A stretch of 64,000 bases of DNA from Halodesulfurarchaeum formicicum. Its GTDB lineage: Archaea > Halobacteriota > Halobacteria > Halobacteriales > Halobacteriaceae. Both the position numbers and the translations under genes were made by a program. The notes under the pieces are model-generated. The model was not told where the DNA came from. It did no database searches and worked only from the letters and a program-made list of their open reading frames with translations. Shown here one piece after another: positions 1,585 to 13,182 of the stretch. The stretch is from assembly GCF_001886955.1 (NCBI RefSeq), contig NZ_CP016804.1, forward strand, positions 186,001 to 250,000. Direction: 5' to 3'. The number at the start of each line of letters is the position of its first letter. Position 1 is the first letter of the stretch.

Positions 1585-1781
1585 AACATTGGATCACAGT
1601 TTCCGTTTCGACGGTTTTGTGATCCCATCGATTACGACCCGTTCCAACGGGGGCGTAATCAACATTGGACGGCAGTTCCGTTTCGACGGAACTGTGGTCC
1701 GCCATCGATTACGACCCGTTTGACGGGAACGTAATCATCATTGGGTCACGGTTCCGTTTCGACGGAACTGTGGTCCAGCCA
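1585..1781 (+). repeat. Three tandem 76-bp repeat units in 16S-23S spacer
   Basis: The motif CATTGG recurs at 1587, 1663 and 1739, a period of exactly 76 bp. Each copy is followed by a hairpin built on CCGTTTCGACGG, most clearly AGTTCCG-TTTCGA-CGGAACT in units two and three. Between units lies a second inverted repeat, ATTACG...CGTAAT, around ACCCGTT. The last unit is truncated and runs into the 23S start. The array was probably made by tandem duplication of a processing or internal-promoter module. TTCGACGG resembles the element I recall from haloarchaeal rRNA promoters, but no AT-rich box accompanies it. Confidence 0.75.
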
Positions 1782-4698
<2,917 letters not shown>

Positions 4699-4721
4699 CA
4701 TTCATTCCGCCATCCGTTTCG

Positions 4722-4829: not shown

Positions 4830-5060
4830 TTAAGGCGGCCATAGCGGCGGGGAAACACCCGTACCCATCCCGAACACGGAAGTTAAGCCCGCCTGCGTTC
4901 CGGCGAGTACTGGAGTGCGCGAGCCTCTGGGAAAACTGCCTCGCATTAGCGAGGGGCCAAGTGCAGGCCGAGGGGTGCAATCGGAAGTACACGCAGGGTC
5001 CGTCCCGGTGGAACCCGAGACCATCCTGTCGACGCCTGTAACTGGTGGTTCGCCGCCACC
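4830..5060 (+). rRNA. rrf: 5S ribosomal RNA, enlarged (231 nt)
   Basis: It begins TTAAGGCGGCC and ends GGTTCGCCGCCACC, which pair as helix I. The core matches haloarchaeal 5S (CCCGTACCCATCCCGAACACGG, GCGTTCCGG, GTACTGGAGTGCGCGAGCCT), but after CTCTGGGAAAA about 108 extra nucleotides precede the closing TGGTGGTTCGCC. Haloarchaeal 5S is normally about 122 nt. From memory, Halococcus morrhuae 5S is 231 nt with a 108-nt insertion at the same place, a striking match in length and position. Whether the insert stays in the mature RNA cannot be told from DNA. Confidence 0.93.
4935..5042 (+). other. About 108-nt insertion inside 5S rRNA
   Basis: The insertion separates the helix IV/V strand GAGCCTCTGGGAAA from its continuation near the 3' end. 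It opens with a perfect hairpin, CCTCGC-ATTA-GCGAGG (4939-4954), and has further G/C-rich self-complementary stretches, so it probably folds as an independent arm. It contains no open reading frame of note and no intron-like bulge-helix-bulge that I could find. Boundaries are uncertain by a few bases because the flanks are A- and G-rich. Confidence 0.8.
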
Positions 5061-5109
5061 ATTCATTTCCTTTCATTCATCACGTTCGTGAGCGACGGCC
5101 ACGTCGCTC
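5061..5109 (+). terminator. T/C-rich tract plus hairpin after 5S, possible rRNA operon terminator
   Basis: Directly after 5S lies a pyrimidine-rich run with several T clusters (5061-5080), then the stem-loop GAGCGAC-GGCCAC-GTCGCTC (5090-5109). Archaeal RNA polymerase terminates on T-rich stretches, so this is a reasonable terminator candidate. No RNA evidence is available. Confidence 0.4.
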
Positions 5110-5291: not shown

Positions 5292-5302
5292 ATAAGAATA
5301 TA
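5292..5302 (+). promoter_or_regulatory. TATA-like box for the TRAP operon
   Basis: An AT-rich segment, ATAAGAATATA, is centred about 31 nt before the ATG at 5329. This places the expected transcription start at or just before that codon and supports a leaderless mRNA. It is the main reason for preferring the ATG at 5329 to an in-frame ATG at 5302, which lies within the box. Confidence 0.5.
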
Positions 5303-5328
5303 TGCGAGGCAGTATTGTCTGTTATCGT

Positions 5329-6303
5329 ATGACACGCAACACGAGTCGACGACGATTCATTCAGGCTGCCGGTGGCGCGTCCCTGGTAGCGCTCGCTGGC
5401 TGTGCCGGAAACGGCGAGAACGGGGAGGGGACCACCACTGAAGAGGAGGAAACCACGCGTTTCTCCTGGCACGCAGGTGGCACCAGCGGGACCTACTACC
5501 CGCTCTCGAACGAGTTCAAGACGGTTGTCGAGGACAACACTGATTACTCGCTCAACGTCCAGTCCACGGGCGCGAGCGTGGAGAACGTCGGCAGTCTCCA
5601 GAGTGGTGACGCCGACTTCGCGCTGATCCAGAACGACATCGCCTACTTCGCCAAGAACGGGACCGGGATCGACGCCTTCGACGGCAGTCCGGTCGAGAAC
5701 CTCAAGGGGGTCGCGACACTGTACCCCGAAACGATCACGGTCGTCACGCTCGCGGAGTCCGGCATCTCGACGCTGTCGGATCTCGAAGGCAAGACGATCA
5801 ACACGGGGGACCTCGGGTCCGGAACACAGGTCAACGCCCTGCAGATCCTCGAGGCAGTGGGCATCGAGGACTTCGACGAGCAGAACGCCTCCTTCGGGCA
5901 GGCGGCCGACCAGCTGCGTGACGGTGATGTGGACGCCGCCTTCGTCGTCGGTGGGTGGCCGGTCGGGGCCATCGAGGACCTCGCGAACACGAACGACATC
6001 GAGATCGTCCCCATCGCCGGCGACAATCGCGCGGCGGTCAAGGACGCGGCCTCCTGGTTTGCCGATGACACCATCCCTGGTGGCACCTATTCGGGCGTCG
6101 AGTCGGACGTCGAAACCGTCGCCGTCCAGGCGATGATCGCGACCCGATCCGGCCTCGACGCGGACGCCGTCGAGACGGTGACCGCGGCTATCTTCGACAA
6201 CGTCGACGCCCTCTCCACGAAGACCGACTTCATCTCCAAGGAGAGCGCCCAGGACGGCATGTCCATCGAGCTGCACGAGGGCGCAGCGGCGTACTTCGGG
6301 TAA
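5329..6303 (+). CDS. TAXI-family TRAP transporter substrate-binding lipoprotein
   Basis: Predicted to be an extracytoplasmic solute receptor that captures a substrate and hands it to the TRAP permease encoded two genes downstream. The N-terminus carries a twin-arginine motif (RRRF, residues 7-10), a hydrophobic stretch and a lipobox LAGC with Cys25, then an acidic Glu/Thr linker: a Tat-exported, lipid-anchored protein as is usual in haloarchaea. The mature part opens with the TAXI-type segment GGTSGTYYPLSNEFK and contains STGASVENVGSLQSGDADFA and GSGTQVNALQILEAVG. The total of 324 aa is normal for the family. Some TAXI proteins bind glutamate or glutamine, but the ligand here cannot be inferred. 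Confidence 0.93.
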   Translation: MTRNTSRRRFIQAAGGASLVALAGCAGNGENGEGTTTEEEETTRFSWHAGGTSGTYYPLSNEFKTVVEDNTDYSLNVQSTGASVENVGSLQSGDADFALIQNDIAYFAKNGTGIDAFDGSPVENLKGVATLYPETITVVTLAESGISTLSDLEGKTINTGDLGSGTQVNALQILEAVGIEDFDEQNASFGQAADQLRDGDVDAAFVVGGWPVGAIEDLANTNDIEIVPIAGDNRAAVKDAASWFADDTIPGGTYSGVESDVETVAVQAMIATRSGLDADAVETVTAAIFDNVDALSTKTDFISKESAQDGMSIELHEGAAAYFG

Positions 6304-6333
6304 CGCCCTCGAACCACCGACGGCTTTCGCTGC

Positions 6334-6831
6334 ATGAACCTGCCTGACTGGTCGGTCCGCCGATGGGTACTGGTCGCGATCGTCGTGTTCGCAGCGATCG
6401 GACTGGCCCTTGGAACGCCGGCGCAGAAAACCCTCGTCGTCGAACGAGTCGACTCTGGCGAGGTGATCATCGCGGACTCGGTTTCGAACGGAACGACTGT
6501 TGGCCTCGAATACATGCACAGCGTCGAGAAGACCCGGGTTTACGACGAGTATACCGTCCGAGGAATGTCACTTGCCAACACACGGATGGAGTTCGAATCC
6601 TACGGTTGGGGCCTCCCGGCGGGGGCGAACGTCACGCTGGAGGACGGCGTCTTCGTGTTCGAACCGGACAAATCCTACCAGTCGATCACCGTCAAGCCGG
6701 GCCGAATCGCGAATCACACGCTCACGGTCGGTGATCGGACGTACGATCTGGTCGAGCGGGCCGATGCGAATTCGGTGCATATTCGGGTAACCAGAACGAC
6801 GCCCCTAACAAGACTCCTCGTGGGTCGGTGA
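6334..6831 (+). CDS. DUF1850 domain protein of TRAP operon
   Basis: A small protein of 165 aa with one N-terminal membrane anchor (WVLVAIVVFAAIGLALG) and an exported beta-rich domain containing LEYMHSVEKTRVYDEY, the recognisable core of DUF1850. This family is regularly found between TAXI binding proteins and fused TRAP permeases, as here, but its biochemical role is unknown. It starts 30 bp after the binding protein and its stop overlaps the permease GTG start, so the three genes form one operon. Confidence 0.85.
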   Translation: MNLPDWSVRRWVLVAIVVFAAIGLALGTPAQKTLVVERVDSGEVIIADSVSNGTTVGLEYMHSVEKTRVYDEYTVRGMSLANTRMEFESYGWGLPAGANVTLEDGVFVFEPDKSYQSITVKPGRIANHTLTVGDRTYDLVERADANSVHIRVTRTTPLTRLLVGR

Positions 6832-9545
6832 GCCTGATGAGCGAACCCCAGACAACCGACGACGCGGAACCGGCGCCCGAGACTGACGAGCTCATCAACG
6901 AGCTCCAGCAAAAGCGATCTGTCACCGGGTGGCTCGGGTTCGTCGTCGCCGCGGTGGGGATCTCGTTTTCGATCTTCCAGGTCATGCTGGCCGCAAAGAG
7001 CTTCTATTGGGATCTCCCCCTGCCGATCATCGGCGAGGTACGCCTCGTCGGTCTCCAGTTGCTGCAGGCGAATGCGGTCCACGTGAGTTTCGCACTCGTC
7101 TTGACCTTCCTCCTGTATCCACCGAGCACCGGGGAGGGATTCGTCGCCCGGTGGCTCGGGCGGCTCGACTCGGGGATCCGAACCCGGATCGGGCCGGACA
7201 ACCCGGTAGGCCGGGTGCAGGACGGGATCCGCCGCCTGCTCCACTGGGCGTTCTACGATCCCGACCAGAAGCGACTCACCCCCGCGGACGTCGTCCTCTC
7301 GATTTTGGCACTGCTGAGCGCGGTGTACTTCCTCGCGGAGTACAGTGAGATCCAGAACATGCGCGTGTTCGGGCTCGGAGCGGGGAGCCCCTACTACGAG
7401 GTGTTCCCGTTTCGCCTCCTCTTCGAGACGATTCCCGTTCTGGAATCGGTCGCACAAGCGCTGCCGGGCGCCGAGATATCATACGCCTTCGTCCTGGGCG
7501 CCATCGGAGTGCTGCTCGTTCTGGAGGCGACCCGGCGGACGATCGGGCTCCCGCTGATGCTCATCGTCGCAGCCTTCATTCTCTACGCTCGGTGGGGACA
7601 CTTCATTCCTCAGGACGCCGCCTACGTCGGCATTCTCTCGATTCCCAACCTCTCCTGGGAGTCGATCATCCAGAACCTGTGGTACAATACCGAAAATGGG
7701 GTTTTCGGCATCCCGGTGACCGTCTCGGTGCAGTTCATCTACATCTTCATCCTCTTCGGTGCGTTCCTGGAGAAGAGCGGGGCCGGCCAGTGGTTCATCG
7801 ATCTCGCGTACGCGGGGACGGGCACGCGGACCGGCGGGCCCGCGAAGGCCTCGATCCTCGCGAGTGGGTTCATGGGTACGATCTCCGGCTCCTCGATCGC
7901 CAACACGGTCACGACGGGCACGTTCACTATTCCGCTCATGAAGCGCTCGGGGTACGACCCCGAGTTCTCGGGCGCGGTCGAAGCGGCGGCGTCCTCGGGC
8001 GGCCAGATCCTTCCGCCAGTCATGGGTGCAGCCGCGTTCCTCATCGTCCAGTATACGGCCACGCCCTTCGCGGACGTCATCGTCGTGGCGACGATCCCCG
8101 CGATCGTGTTCTTCTTCGGCGTGTGGGTGATGGTCCACCTCGAAGCGGTCCGGGCCGGCGTCGGCGGCCTCGACAAGAGCGAACTCGTCAACGTGGGGGA
8201 CCATCTTCGGCGGGGTTGGTTCTACCTCGTCCCACTCTTCTTGCTGCTCTATTATCTCATCATCGAGCGGCTTTCGGTCGCCCGGTCAGCCTGGTTCACC
8301 ATCCTCGCGATCGGCGCGTTACTCGCCCTTGTCGCGGCGTACAACGACCAGACCCGGCTCTTGCTTCCGGCGACCGTCGCTGGGGTTGCCGCCATTCAAT
8401 TCGTCTCGTTTGTCCTCTTCGGGACTGACCTGCTGGGACTTCTCATCACTGGCCCACTCGGGGGCGTGAGCCTGCAGGTGGCCGTCGGGCGGGTGATCGG
8501 CAACCTGGGCTGGTACACGATCATCGCGGGGTTCCTGGTGATGGCCACGCACCCGGGGATGCGCGCTCCGCTGCTGTCCCTGGACCCCGACGTGGGTTCG
8601 GCGGCCCGAACGGTGTCGAATGCGGTCCGTCGCCCATCGCTCGCCGACAATCAGCTGTTCCGATACATCGCCTACACCGGGAACGCCATGGACTCGGGCG
8701 CCCGCACGGCGGTGCCGGTGGTCATCGCGGTCGCCGCAGCCGGGATCATCCCGGGGGTGATCAGCGTCTCCGGGCTCGGGCCGAACCTGGTCTCGCTCAT
8801 TACTCAGTTGGCCGCGGGCTCGCTCGTGCTCATGCTGCTCATGACCGCTGTCGCGTCGATCATCCTCGGGATGGGGATGCCGACGACGGTCACGTACATC
8901 ATTTTGGTCTCGCTTCTGGGGCCAGCCCTCGTCGAGTTCGGCATTGCCGAGCTGGCCGCTCACCTGTTCATCCTCTACTTCGGCGTGATCGCCGACATCA
9001 CGCCTCCCGTCGCAGTCGCGGCCTACGCCGCCTCGGGCGTGGCCCAGTCTGATGCCTTCGAAACCGGTGTGAAGGCCTTCTCCCTCTCGCTCAACAAGGC
9101 CGTCGTGCCCTTTGCCTTCATCCTCTCGCCGGGGATCTTGCTCCTGCGAACCGGGGTCGAGGTGCCGGACTCGGATAAGACCTACCGGGTGCTCAACAGT
9201 GCCGACCTTCTCGATCTCACCTACTCGATTCCCGAGGTGCTCGTGCCGGTTCTCGGGCTCTTCCTGGGCGTGATCGCACTCGGGGCGACGGTCATCGGCC
9301 ACCTCTACGCGCCGGTCTCGCGACTCAAGCGGGCGGGGTTTGCACTCAGTTCCCTCCTCTTGATGGCTCCTGGACTCCTCGTGACGGCGATTTCGGATGC
9401 CATCACGACTGTCGGGATGGCACCGATTCCGGTTACCACGTCCATTGATCTCGGCCTTCGGGCGATCGGACTGCTGCTGTTTGTGGTCCTCCTCGTTCAG
9501 AATCGCCGCGTTGACTGGAGCCTGGAGCAGGAACCGACGGCCTAG
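6828..9545 (+). CDS. TRAP transporter fused permease (4TM + 12TM)
   Basis: A 905-aa integral membrane protein in which the small DctQ-like and large DctM-like subunits are fused, as in the TRAP fused-permease family that partners TAXI receptors. The N-terminal third has four hydrophobic segments. The large domain has the expected Gly/Ser-rich loops, for example GFMGTISGSSIANTVTTGTF and AAASSGGQILPPVMGAA, and later GMGMPTTVTYIILVSLL and ADITPPVAVAAYAAS. It would use a cation gradient (Na+ in characterised TRAP systems). The start is GTG 6828, overlapping the upstream stop; ATG 6837 is an equally plausible start. Confidence 0.93.
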   Translation: MSLMSEPQTTDDAEPAPETDELINELQQKRSVTGWLGFVVAAVGISFSIFQVMLAAKSFYWDLPLPIIGEVRLVGLQLLQANAVHVSFALVLTFLLYPPSTGEGFVARWLGRLDSGIRTRIGPDNPVGRVQDGIRRLLHWAFYDPDQKRLTPADVVLSILALLSAVYFLAEYSEIQNMRVFGLGAGSPYYEVFPFRLLFETIPVLESVAQALPGAEISYAFVLGAIGVLLVLEATRRTIGLPLMLIVAAFILYARWGHFIPQDAAYVGILSIPNLSWESIIQNLWYNTENGVFGIPVTVSVQFIYIFILFGAFLEKSGAGQWFIDLAYAGTGTRTGGPAKASILASGFMGTISGSSIANTVTTGTFTIPLMKRSGYDPEFSGAVEAAASSGGQILPPVMGAAAFLIVQYTATPFADVIVVATIPAIVFFFGVWVMVHLEAVRAGVGGLDKSELVNVGDHLRRGWFYLVPLFLLLYYLIIERLSVARSAWFTILAIGALLALVAAYNDQTRLLLPATVAGVAAIQFVSFVLFGTDLLGLLITGPLGGVSLQVAVGRVIGNLGWYTIIAGFLVMATHPGMRAPLLSLDPDVGSAARTVSNAVRRPSLADNQLFRYIAYTGNAMDSGARTAVPVVIAVAAAGIIPGVISVSGLGPNLVSLITQLAAGSLVLMLLMTAVASIILGMGMPTTVTYIILVSLLGPALVEFGIAELAAHLFILYFGVIADITPPVAVAAYAASGVAQSDAFETGVKAFSLSLNKAVVPFAFILSPGILLLRTGVEVPDSDKTYRVLNSADLLDLTYSIPEVLVPVLGLFLGVIALGATVIGHLYAPVSRLKRAGFALSSLLLMAPGLLVTAISDAITTVGMAPIPVTTSIDLGLRAIGLLLFVVLLVQNRRVDWSLEQEPTA

Positions 9546-10285
9546 ACCGACTCGGGCCAGACGTCTTCGTCGAGTCGGGTGACGACGATCTCCAAAAGCG
9601 TCTGGAGGTTGACCGTGTCCGCGCGGTTGTATTCACAGAGTGTTTCGAGTGCAGCTTGGTCTCCACGTTCGTACTCCCGCCAGAGTCGAATCGCGTCCCG
9701 GCCCGAGATGTCGGGGCGGTCACGTTCGATGCCAACTGTCCGTTCGATCTCTTTGAGCCCGCCGCTCAGTCCCAGTCGCTGGCTCAGGAATCGGAGGTCG
9801 AGGTGCGGGACATCGACGGCGATGTCGAAGGCCGTCTCGAGAAATGGCACGTCGAACTGCGCGCCGTTGAACGTACTCAAGAGTGCGGCGTCTTCGAGAT
9901 GTGACTGAAGCCGCTCGGCGGTAAGATCCCGGCCACGGACGAGCGTCGTCGTCTCCCCGCCCTGGTGAAGCGAGACTGTGGTCACGACGTTTCGCCGTTT
10001 GTCCAGCCCGGTGGTCTCGATGTCCAGGAACAGCGTCTCCTCACGGAAATTCTCGTAGAGCCGCCACTGTGCCGAGTCGGGGAACTGTTCGGCAAAGAAG
10101 GTGGCCTCACCGGCTTCGAGCCGCGGTTCGGCCCGGGCGATGAAGTCCTCGACGCGGGCCCCGGTCTTCTCGCCCAGCAAGTCGGGGTCGAAGCGATCCC
10201 AGTGGGTCGCTCCCTCGGCCCAGAGCGAGCGCTCGGTCTTCTCCCCGACCCCCCGAACCGGAATGTAACTCTGCTCGATTCGCAC
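9542..10285 (-). CDS. Ribonuclease H-like 3'-5' exonuclease domain protein (YprB type)
   Basis: A 247-aa protein with a short N-terminal helical region and a DEDD-type RNase H-like fold. Visible acidic motifs are LFLDIETTGLD, NGAQFDVPFLE and the C-terminal YNRADTVNL, matching the family often annotated RNase_H_2/YprB. It presumably degrades or trims nucleic acid in the cytoplasm; the substrate is unknown. The start is taken at the GTG giving VRIEQSYIPVRGVG, because close haloarchaeal proteins begin MRIE.SFIPVRGVG. An upstream ATG at 10342 would add 19 residues with no similarity to the family. Its stop overlaps the permease stop convergently. Confidence 0.85.
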   Translation of the reverse strand: MRIEQSYIPVRGVGEKTERSLWAEGATHWDRFDPDLLGEKTGARVEDFIARAEPRLEAGEATFFAEQFPDSAQWRLYENFREETLFLDIETTGLDKRRNVVTTVSLHQGGETTTLVRGRDLTAERLQSHLEDAALLSTFNGAQFDVPFLETAFDIAVDVPHLDLRFLSQRLGLSGGLKEIERTVGIERDRPDISGRDAIRLWREYERGDQAALETLCEYNRADTVNLQTLLEIVVTRLDEDVWPESV

Positions 10286-10376
10286 GCCCGTAGCTACACC
10301 TGAGGAGATGAAAAGCTTCGCGGGTCCGGATTCGGACCGCAATGATTAACCCCTCCAATCGAGTAGCATCGACTGC

Positions 10377-10452
10377 GCCAAGGTGGCAGAGTCCGGCCTA
10401 ACGCAGCGGCCTGCAGAGCCGCCCATCGCCGGTTCAAATCCGGCCCTTGGCT
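10377..10452 (+). tRNA. tRNA-Cys (anticodon GCA)
   Basis: A 76-nt cloverleaf. The acceptor GCCAAGG pairs with CCTTGGC and is followed by U, the expected discriminator for tRNA-Cys. The anticodon stem-loop GCGGC-CTGCAGA-GCCGC gives anticodon GCA. The T arm is GCCGGTTCAAATCCGGC. In several haloarchaea tRNA-Cys is the last gene of the rRNA operon; here it lies 5.3 kb beyond 5S, with the TRAP operon and a nuclease gene in between. Confidence 0.96.
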
Positions 10453-12432: not shown

Positions 12433-13182
12433 ATGCGCCGCGACCGCGTGGACTGGGAACGACTCGGCGTCTGGGTGATCGGCCTGGTCGTCGTTGCCGC
12501 TGCGCTCCTGGTTGGCTTCGCCGGAACGCCGTACACGGCCCCGCCGGGAGCCATCGAGGCAACAGCAGCCAACCCCGCGATCGACGTGACTTCGTTCCAT
12601 GGTGGCTACGCTATCACCCCCGTCGACACTGCACCCGATGCTGCGCTGGTCTTCTACCCCGGTGCCCGCGTGGATCCGAGTGCCTACGTGCCTGTCATGG
12701 GCCCGGTCGTGGCCGAAAGTGATGTCGCCGTGCTCGTTCCCCGGCCGCGATTGAACCTGGCGGTCCTCGAACCGAATATGGCAGAGTCGGTCCGGGCGGC
12801 CACCCCCCAGATCGAGCAGTGGTACGTCGGCGGCCACTCGTTGGGCGGTGCGATGGCCTGTCGTGTCGCTGCGTCGAACCCCGAGTGGGTCGAGGGTGTG
12901 GTCCTCTTCGGTTCGTACTGTGACCGCTCGATAGCGGACACGGATCTCTCCGTGCTCTCGGTTGGCGGGACTCGGGATACCGTACTTGGGACTGATCGGT
13001 CGGCGCTTCGCCCGGAGCGACTTCCGGAAAACGCCACGATCTATCGGATCGAGGGGCTCAATCACACGCAGTTCGGGAGCTACGCGGGCCAGCCGGGAGA
13101 CAGTCCGGCGACGATTTCACGGGAAACTGCACACGAGCGTCTGCAGTCGGCCCTCGTCGAATTCTTCGTGGCGAGGGGCTAG
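12433..13182 (+). CDS. Alpha/beta hydrolase, membrane-anchored
   Basis: A 249-aa protein with one N-terminal membrane segment (WVIGLVVVAAALLVGFAG) followed by an exported alpha/beta-hydrolase domain. The nucleophile elbow GGHSLGGAMA is clear, and a late His in GLNHTQFGSY would complete the triad; an Asp is likely in GGTRDTV. It resembles the Abhydrolase_5/dienelactone-hydrolase group and could be an esterase or lipase. It is transcribed divergently from the calcium-repeat surface protein, with about 80 bp between them. Confidence 0.85.
   Translation: MRRDRVDWERLGVWVIGLVVVAAALLVGFAGTPYTAPPGAIEATAANPAIDVTSFHGGYAITPVDTAPDAALVFYPGARVDPSAYVPVMGPVVAESDVAVLVPRPRLNLAVLEPNMAESVRAATPQIEQWYVGGHSLGGAMACRVAASNPEWVEGVVLFGSYCDRSIADTDLSVLSVGGTRDTVLGTDRSALRPERLPENATIYRIEGLNHTQFGSYAGQPGDSPATISRETAHERLQSALVEFFVARG

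Follow-up and report, generated by a model that had tools for sequence, protein, structure and literature searches.

The window that we analysed, a stretch of 64,000 nt that spans positions 186001-250000 in the genome of Halodesulfurarchaeum formicicum HSR6, begins inside a ribosomal RNA operon encoded on the forward strand. The 16S rRNA gene, whose 5' part lies before the window, occupies positions 1-1099 (Rfam RF01959, 1185 bits) and is followed by tRNA-Ala(TGC) in the 16S-23S spacer (1242-1313; ARAGORN and Rfam), by the 23S rRNA gene (1778-4703; RF02540, 2823 bits) and, in the place of the 5S rRNA gene at the end of this 16S-tRNA-Ala-23S-5S operon, by a gene of 230 nt as delimited by homology (4831-5060; RF00001, and alignment with 30 homologues). 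An earlier note on this DNA had described the gene as a complete haloarchaeal 5S enlarged by an insertion near its 3' end, and had proposed a comparison with the Rfam 5S covariance model. This model matched positions 4831-4949 with 89.1 bits, well above its gathering score of 38 (E = 9e-18).

The match covered the complete 5' core, and the last strand of the model was aligned onto the inserted sequence; the core really ends at 5048-5060. When aligned with 5S genes that lack an interruption (L036, L041 and others), the gene divided into a 5' core portion that reaches the pairs closing the loop E helix (4831-4938), an expansion segment of 109 nt (4939-5047; also detected by our RNA model of the insert, R1) and the 3' strand of helix I, GTTCGCCGCCACC (5048-5060; supported by the pairs of helix 1), so that the ends and core are complete as the note had held. 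The edges of the insert can be placed only to within a base or two, because a G is present on both flanks. The uninterrupted haloarchaeal core measures 121 nt between the same ends; the gene thus consists of an ordinary 121-nt core and 109 extra nucleotides. The core retains its own loop E, with AGUA at 4906-4909 and the 3' strand GAA at 4931-4933 (column counts of the alignment).

H. formicicum HSR6 has no 5S rRNA gene other than this expanded one, which lies in the only rRNA operon of the complete genome of 2,085,946 bp, in which one rRNA operon had been reported (PMC5437934). A second, intact 5S copy, whose presence would have changed the picture according to the note, is absent: the genome holds a single 5S match and a single match to R1 (E = 2.8e-26). 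The surroundings of the operon differ from those of nine among the other haloarchaeal rRNA operons that we checked, in which tRNA-Cys begins 89-142 nt past the 5S gene; here it is found at 10377, and the gap of ~5.3 kb between the two holds, at 5302-10342, a TAXI/TRAP-type transporter set (an NMT1_3 substrate-binding protein, DUF1850 and DctM) as well as an RNase_H_2 gene on the minus strand. Further downstream, a tRNA-Asp with anticodon ATC was called by ARAGORN at 13008-13094 without confirmation by Rfam, and is probably false.

Fold and conserved tip of the insert

The insert folds into two arms. It opens, as the earlier note had observed, with a perfect 6-bp hairpin (CCTCGC-ATTA-GCGAGG; 4939-4954), which forms the short arm; in most relatives this arm has 4 bp and a GCAA loop, and it is paired in 100% of cases, with compensatory changes in 2 of the 4 pairs counted. 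The long arm (4964-5038) consists of four stacked helices with internal loops between them, each belonging to the covarying set (helices 7-10). Covariation was assessed over 31 distinct sequences in a 55-pair structure that comprises the core and both arms of the insert. Among the base-pair cells 99.1% were paired, double changes occurred in 23 pairs, and the covariation score was reached by none of 500 shuffles. Sliding the pairing partners by 1 to 3 columns lowered pairing to 35-46%, a control that is tilted towards the structure because the structure was derived partly from these same sequences; the double changes speak for it directly, for example the replacement of C-G by A-U in the short arm and of G-C by A-U in the long arm. 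The core helices (1-5) were paired in 94.6-100% of cells over the same 31 sequences, and the core can therefore form despite the insert. Thermodynamic stability (z = -1.4 for the whole gene and -2.0 for the insert) is weak evidence by itself, and it is the covariation that carries the argument. The enlargement is thus real, with 31 insert-bearing homologues, the RF00001 match and covariation behind it, and the description of the insert as a covarying RNA fold across these sequences is modestly new here.

The best-conserved part of the insert is the terminal stem-loop of the long arm, in which AGUA (4986-4989; 30-31 of 31 sequences at each position) stands opposite GAA (5011-5013; G in 31/31, A in 29/31 and A in 26/31), with the segment between the two strands (4990-5010; helix 10, column counts) forming the end of the arm. 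All four pairs of the neighbouring helix vary. The bulged-G motif has AGUA opposite GAA as its sequence signature, and a GUA opposite GA between canonical helices is present here at the level of sequence; the tip thus appears to hold an internal loop that resembles the bulged-G motif found in loop E of 5S rRNA, which is likewise a modestly new point. In one insert of the Halomarina group (L028, from genome G375) the tip helix reads GAC/GUC in place of CAC/GUG, a compensatory replacement, with AGUA/GA retained. The 2021 survey of expanded 5S rRNAs considered the tip the prime candidate for a functional domain, and a word search showed that sarcin, S-turn and bulged motifs do not come up in its main text (PMC7812874). 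Judging from its conservation and from the shape of the motif, the tip may serve to dock a protein or an RNA.

Probable retention of the insert in the mature RNA

We consider that the gene is an expanded 5S of the known type, whose insert is kept in the mature RNA as two extra arms that leave the core undisturbed; as a joint explanation of the observations this has a probability of about 0.93. The operon transcript would be processed into a 5S rRNA that retains the insert, which, from its place at the junction of the loop E helix and helix I, would leave the canonical 5S fold intact and exit as two additional arms, giving a four-way junction that projects into solvent from the central protuberance. 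The genome offers no normal 5S as a fallback, and this was counted in favour of the explanation. Retention of the insert in mature 5S is documented for Halococcus morrhuae only (PMC7812874, PMC7530397), and by analogy with that species we infer both retention and the four-way junction in H. formicicum.

Archaeal rRNA introns exist, and the insert could instead be an intervening sequence, removed from the 5S precursor by splicing or another form of excision to leave a normal 121-nt 5S. A 7-bp pairing of the insert edges (4934-4940 with 5044-5050) can indeed be drawn for the H. formicicum sequence, but inspection of the alignment by eye showed that relatives, Halocatena and Halorutilus among them, do not preserve it; there is therefore no conserved splice motif, and the conserved exon-intron edge pairing of an archaeal bulge-helix-bulge intron is missing. 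In addition, the insert and the core covary as one fold, the H. morrhuae 5S retains the homologous 108 nt when sequenced as RNA (PMC7812874), and density for the insert was seen in the H. morrhuae ribosome (PMC7530397). Excision is thus very improbable. Returning to the retained insert, it may yet be trimmed or nicked after assembly in H. formicicum.

Distribution and origin of the insert

The distribution of the insert was surveyed by BLAST of 392 Halobacteria genomes and by searches with R1 in chosen families, some of the misses being incomplete MAGs. In the family of H. formicicum the insert was found in 3 of 26 genomes, all of one genus. The size of the gene, which the note had taken as a taxonomic clue, misleads as a pointer to Halococcus: the genome is that of a Halodesulfurarchaeum, whose relatives elsewhere in the family lack the insert. 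The family of Halorutilus (f11) carried it in 3 of 4 genomes, the exception being an incomplete MAG. Elsewhere it was detected in 15 of the 146 genomes of family f2 (genera g61 and g66, and one genome of g56), in 15 of the 18 genomes of f8, where all four genera are represented, and in genus g34 of f9 but not in g75 (the latter judged from a match over positions 1-104 only). Named records that carry the tip pattern belong to Halocatena marina, Halocatena pleomorpha, Actinarchaeum halophilum (on both chromosomes), Halomarina, Halalkalicoccus, Halococcus and Halorutilus salinus. An exact search for this pattern in the GTDB collection returned 22 stretches, and those inspected lay within 5S genes. 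As for spread beyond the class, a phylum sample of 393 genomes searched under stricter filters gave model matches in six genomes, all of the window's order. The insert did not behave as a mobile or free-standing element: it has one genomic copy, none was found in viral contigs or phages, and the plasmid matches were whole rRNA operons.

The insert is therefore present in Halocatena/Actinarchaeum, Halorutilus and further genera besides the four published ones, as judged from openly accessible papers. Halocatena is not mentioned in the 2021 survey (PMC7812874), and Halorutilus was described in 2023, after it (PMC10134839). The occurrence of the insert in more lineages, and in deeper ones, than published is the only fresh point about distribution, and a modestly new one.

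Several individual records deserve mention. Halococcus dombrowskii H4 bears complete 16S-tRNA-23S-expanded 5S operons on two plasmids (L064 and L065; NZ_CP095007.1 and NZ_CP095009.1), for which the distributed gene table holds no gene under the match. The g56 MAG QH_7_66_36 (G130) has an expanded, divergent 5S (L156) and a partial 23S that is nearest to g56 (95.9%); another g56 genome (G228) has a normal 5S, as does G314 by a match over positions 1-104 only, and a recent gain or loss of the insert within this genus is possible. In a MAG that bears the label Bacteroidetes bacterium QS_9_68_14, one contig opens with a haloarchaeal expanded 5S (L053:1-205) and is probably mis-binned, and a Halococcus thailandensis contig contains a broken partial 5S with an N immediately before the intact gene (L043:1530-1640), probably an assembly artefact.

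How the insert came to be so scattered can be explained in two main ways. Stepanov and Fox proposed horizontal transfer (PMC7812874), in which the Halococcus-Halalkalicoccus group donated the insert to Halodesulfurarchaeum and Halomarina, and we give this an even chance. It suits the patchy occurrence within the window's family, confined as it is to one genus; the plasmid-borne operons of H. dombrowskii offer a possible vehicle; and the inserts of Halococcus and Halalkalicoccus resemble each other unusually closely, given the distance between their 23S genes (z about -2.8). Our 23S tree places Halodesulfurarchaeum firmly inside its own family, and any transfer must therefore have involved the 5S alone or part of it. 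However, the insert of Halodesulfurarchaeum does not branch from within a donor group: it is about equally distant from the candidate groups, differing by 17-25% from nearly all inserts of Halococcus, Halalkalicoccus, Halomarina and Halocatena (30% from one Halomarina insert), and the insert also occurs in g41 and in the deepest lineage, Halorutilaceae. Over 117 nt of core, the Halodesulfurarchaeum 5S has 5-6 changes relative to several uninterrupted 5S genes and 8 or more relative to expanded ones outside the genus.

These deep occurrences suit an early origin in Halobacteria, before the split of Halorutilaceae, after which the insert would have been inherited vertically and lost repeatedly. 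Halorutilaceae form the sister group of all remaining sampled Halobacteria in the rooted 23S tree (support 100), a protein tree by the describers of Halorutilus likewise places it as sister to the class (PMC10134839), and every Halorutilaceae genome searched carries the insert except for the one incomplete MAG. An insert tree rooted on this family branches in the order Halorutilaceae, g41, Halocatena/Halomarina and then the rest, broadly as the 23S tree does, and insert and 23S distances correlate (r = 0.80, a value inflated since taxon pairs are not independent). The position of Halorutilaceae and the agreement of the two trees make early origin with repeated loss a rival to the published transfer, and we consider it a serious contender that falls somewhat short of even odds. 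It requires about 8 clean losses (at least 8 on the sampled 23S tree, under descent and loss only); the insert offers only ~110 nt, with most branches unstarred and AU tests that do not reject most other groupings; and the phylum sample did not reveal the insert outside the class. A third source, duplication of the helix IV/loop E region of the 5S itself, is suggested by the AGUA/GAA internal-loop motif shared by the insert tip and the core loop E, and by one Halorutilus insert whose similarity to its own core was equalled by only 1 of 500 shuffles. This match falls in a different part of the core, however, and six of the seven lineages tested lacked insert-core similarity beyond that of shuffles (for H. 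formicicum, 388 of 500 shuffles were as good), which led us to reject the insert as a copy of the loop E region; we regard such an origin as highly unlikely.

A broader scenario, which we consider doubtful, is that all Halobacteria, with Halorutilales among them, descend from an ancestor that already had the expanded 5S, that many losses followed, and that some lineages have kept it because its conserved loop E-like tip binds a specific partner in the ribosome. The gene is a natural case of an rRNA that has nearly doubled in size and is yet the only copy in the cell. Its wider distribution (Halorutilus, Halocatena/Actinarchaeum and other genera) allows one to ask whether the segment is old and often lost or mobile, and the conserved tip is a target for deletion or mutation in asking what binds there.

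Comparison with known oversized 5S rRNAs

The 108-nt insertion in the 5S of H. morrhuae was found in 1981 (Luehrsen) by RNA sequencing of the 5S pool (PMC7812874), and cryo-EM has shown that it makes a four-way junction and has an arm that is flexible (PMC7530397). In 2021 Stepanov and Fox described expanded 5S rRNAs in Halococcus, Halalkalicoccus, Halomarina and Halodesulfurarchaeum, as the sole 5S type in each (PMC7812874). The expanded 5S of Halodesulfurarchaeum is therefore already known, and the H. formicicum gene is a member of this group and of the same kind as the others. Like the Halococcus-type genes, it has a single insertion, of 109 nt, located between loop E and the helix junction (archaeal position 104.1/105), an insert of homologous sequence with a V-shaped two-arm fold and a conserved distal stem-loop, and no other 5S type in its complete genome.

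With H. morrhuae in particular it shares the insertion point, as the earlier note had recognized, together with the two-arm fold, a nearly identical tip sequence and the status of sole 5S. The exact agreement in size claimed there (an insertion of 108 nt and a total of 231) does not hold. Between homologous ends the gene measures 230 nt against 229 nt in H. morrhuae DSM 1307 (L020). The comparison with Halococcus genes bore out the site and the homology of the insert, and the length was off by one. The published H. morrhuae coordinates (66311-66541; PMC7812874), with which those of L020 agree, include one base more on each side; by this convention the H. formicicum gene spans 4830-5061, giving a like-for-like total of 232 nt with an insert of 109 rather than 108 nt, and the figure of 231 resulted from the choice of ends. 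The difference of one base arises because the short hairpin is 4 nt longer in H. formicicum (6 bp closed by an AUUA loop, where H. morrhuae has 4 bp and GCAA) and an internal loop of the long arm is 3 nt shorter. The two inserts differ at 19% of aligned sites, and the RNA itself has been studied in H. morrhuae, whereas H. formicicum is known from its gene.

The putative insert version of the bulged-G (loop E/sarcin-ricin) motif has, like the motif itself, AGUA opposite GAA between two helices, and is known through its conservation among sequences. Expanded 5S rRNAs of bacteria (Thermoanaerobacterium and others; PMC7812874) likewise add a folded module to a 5S core that is itself intact, but at other sites (loop C, the helix III bulge and others) and with other folds of the segment, and some of them, unlike the H. 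formicicum gene, occur beside normal 5S copies.
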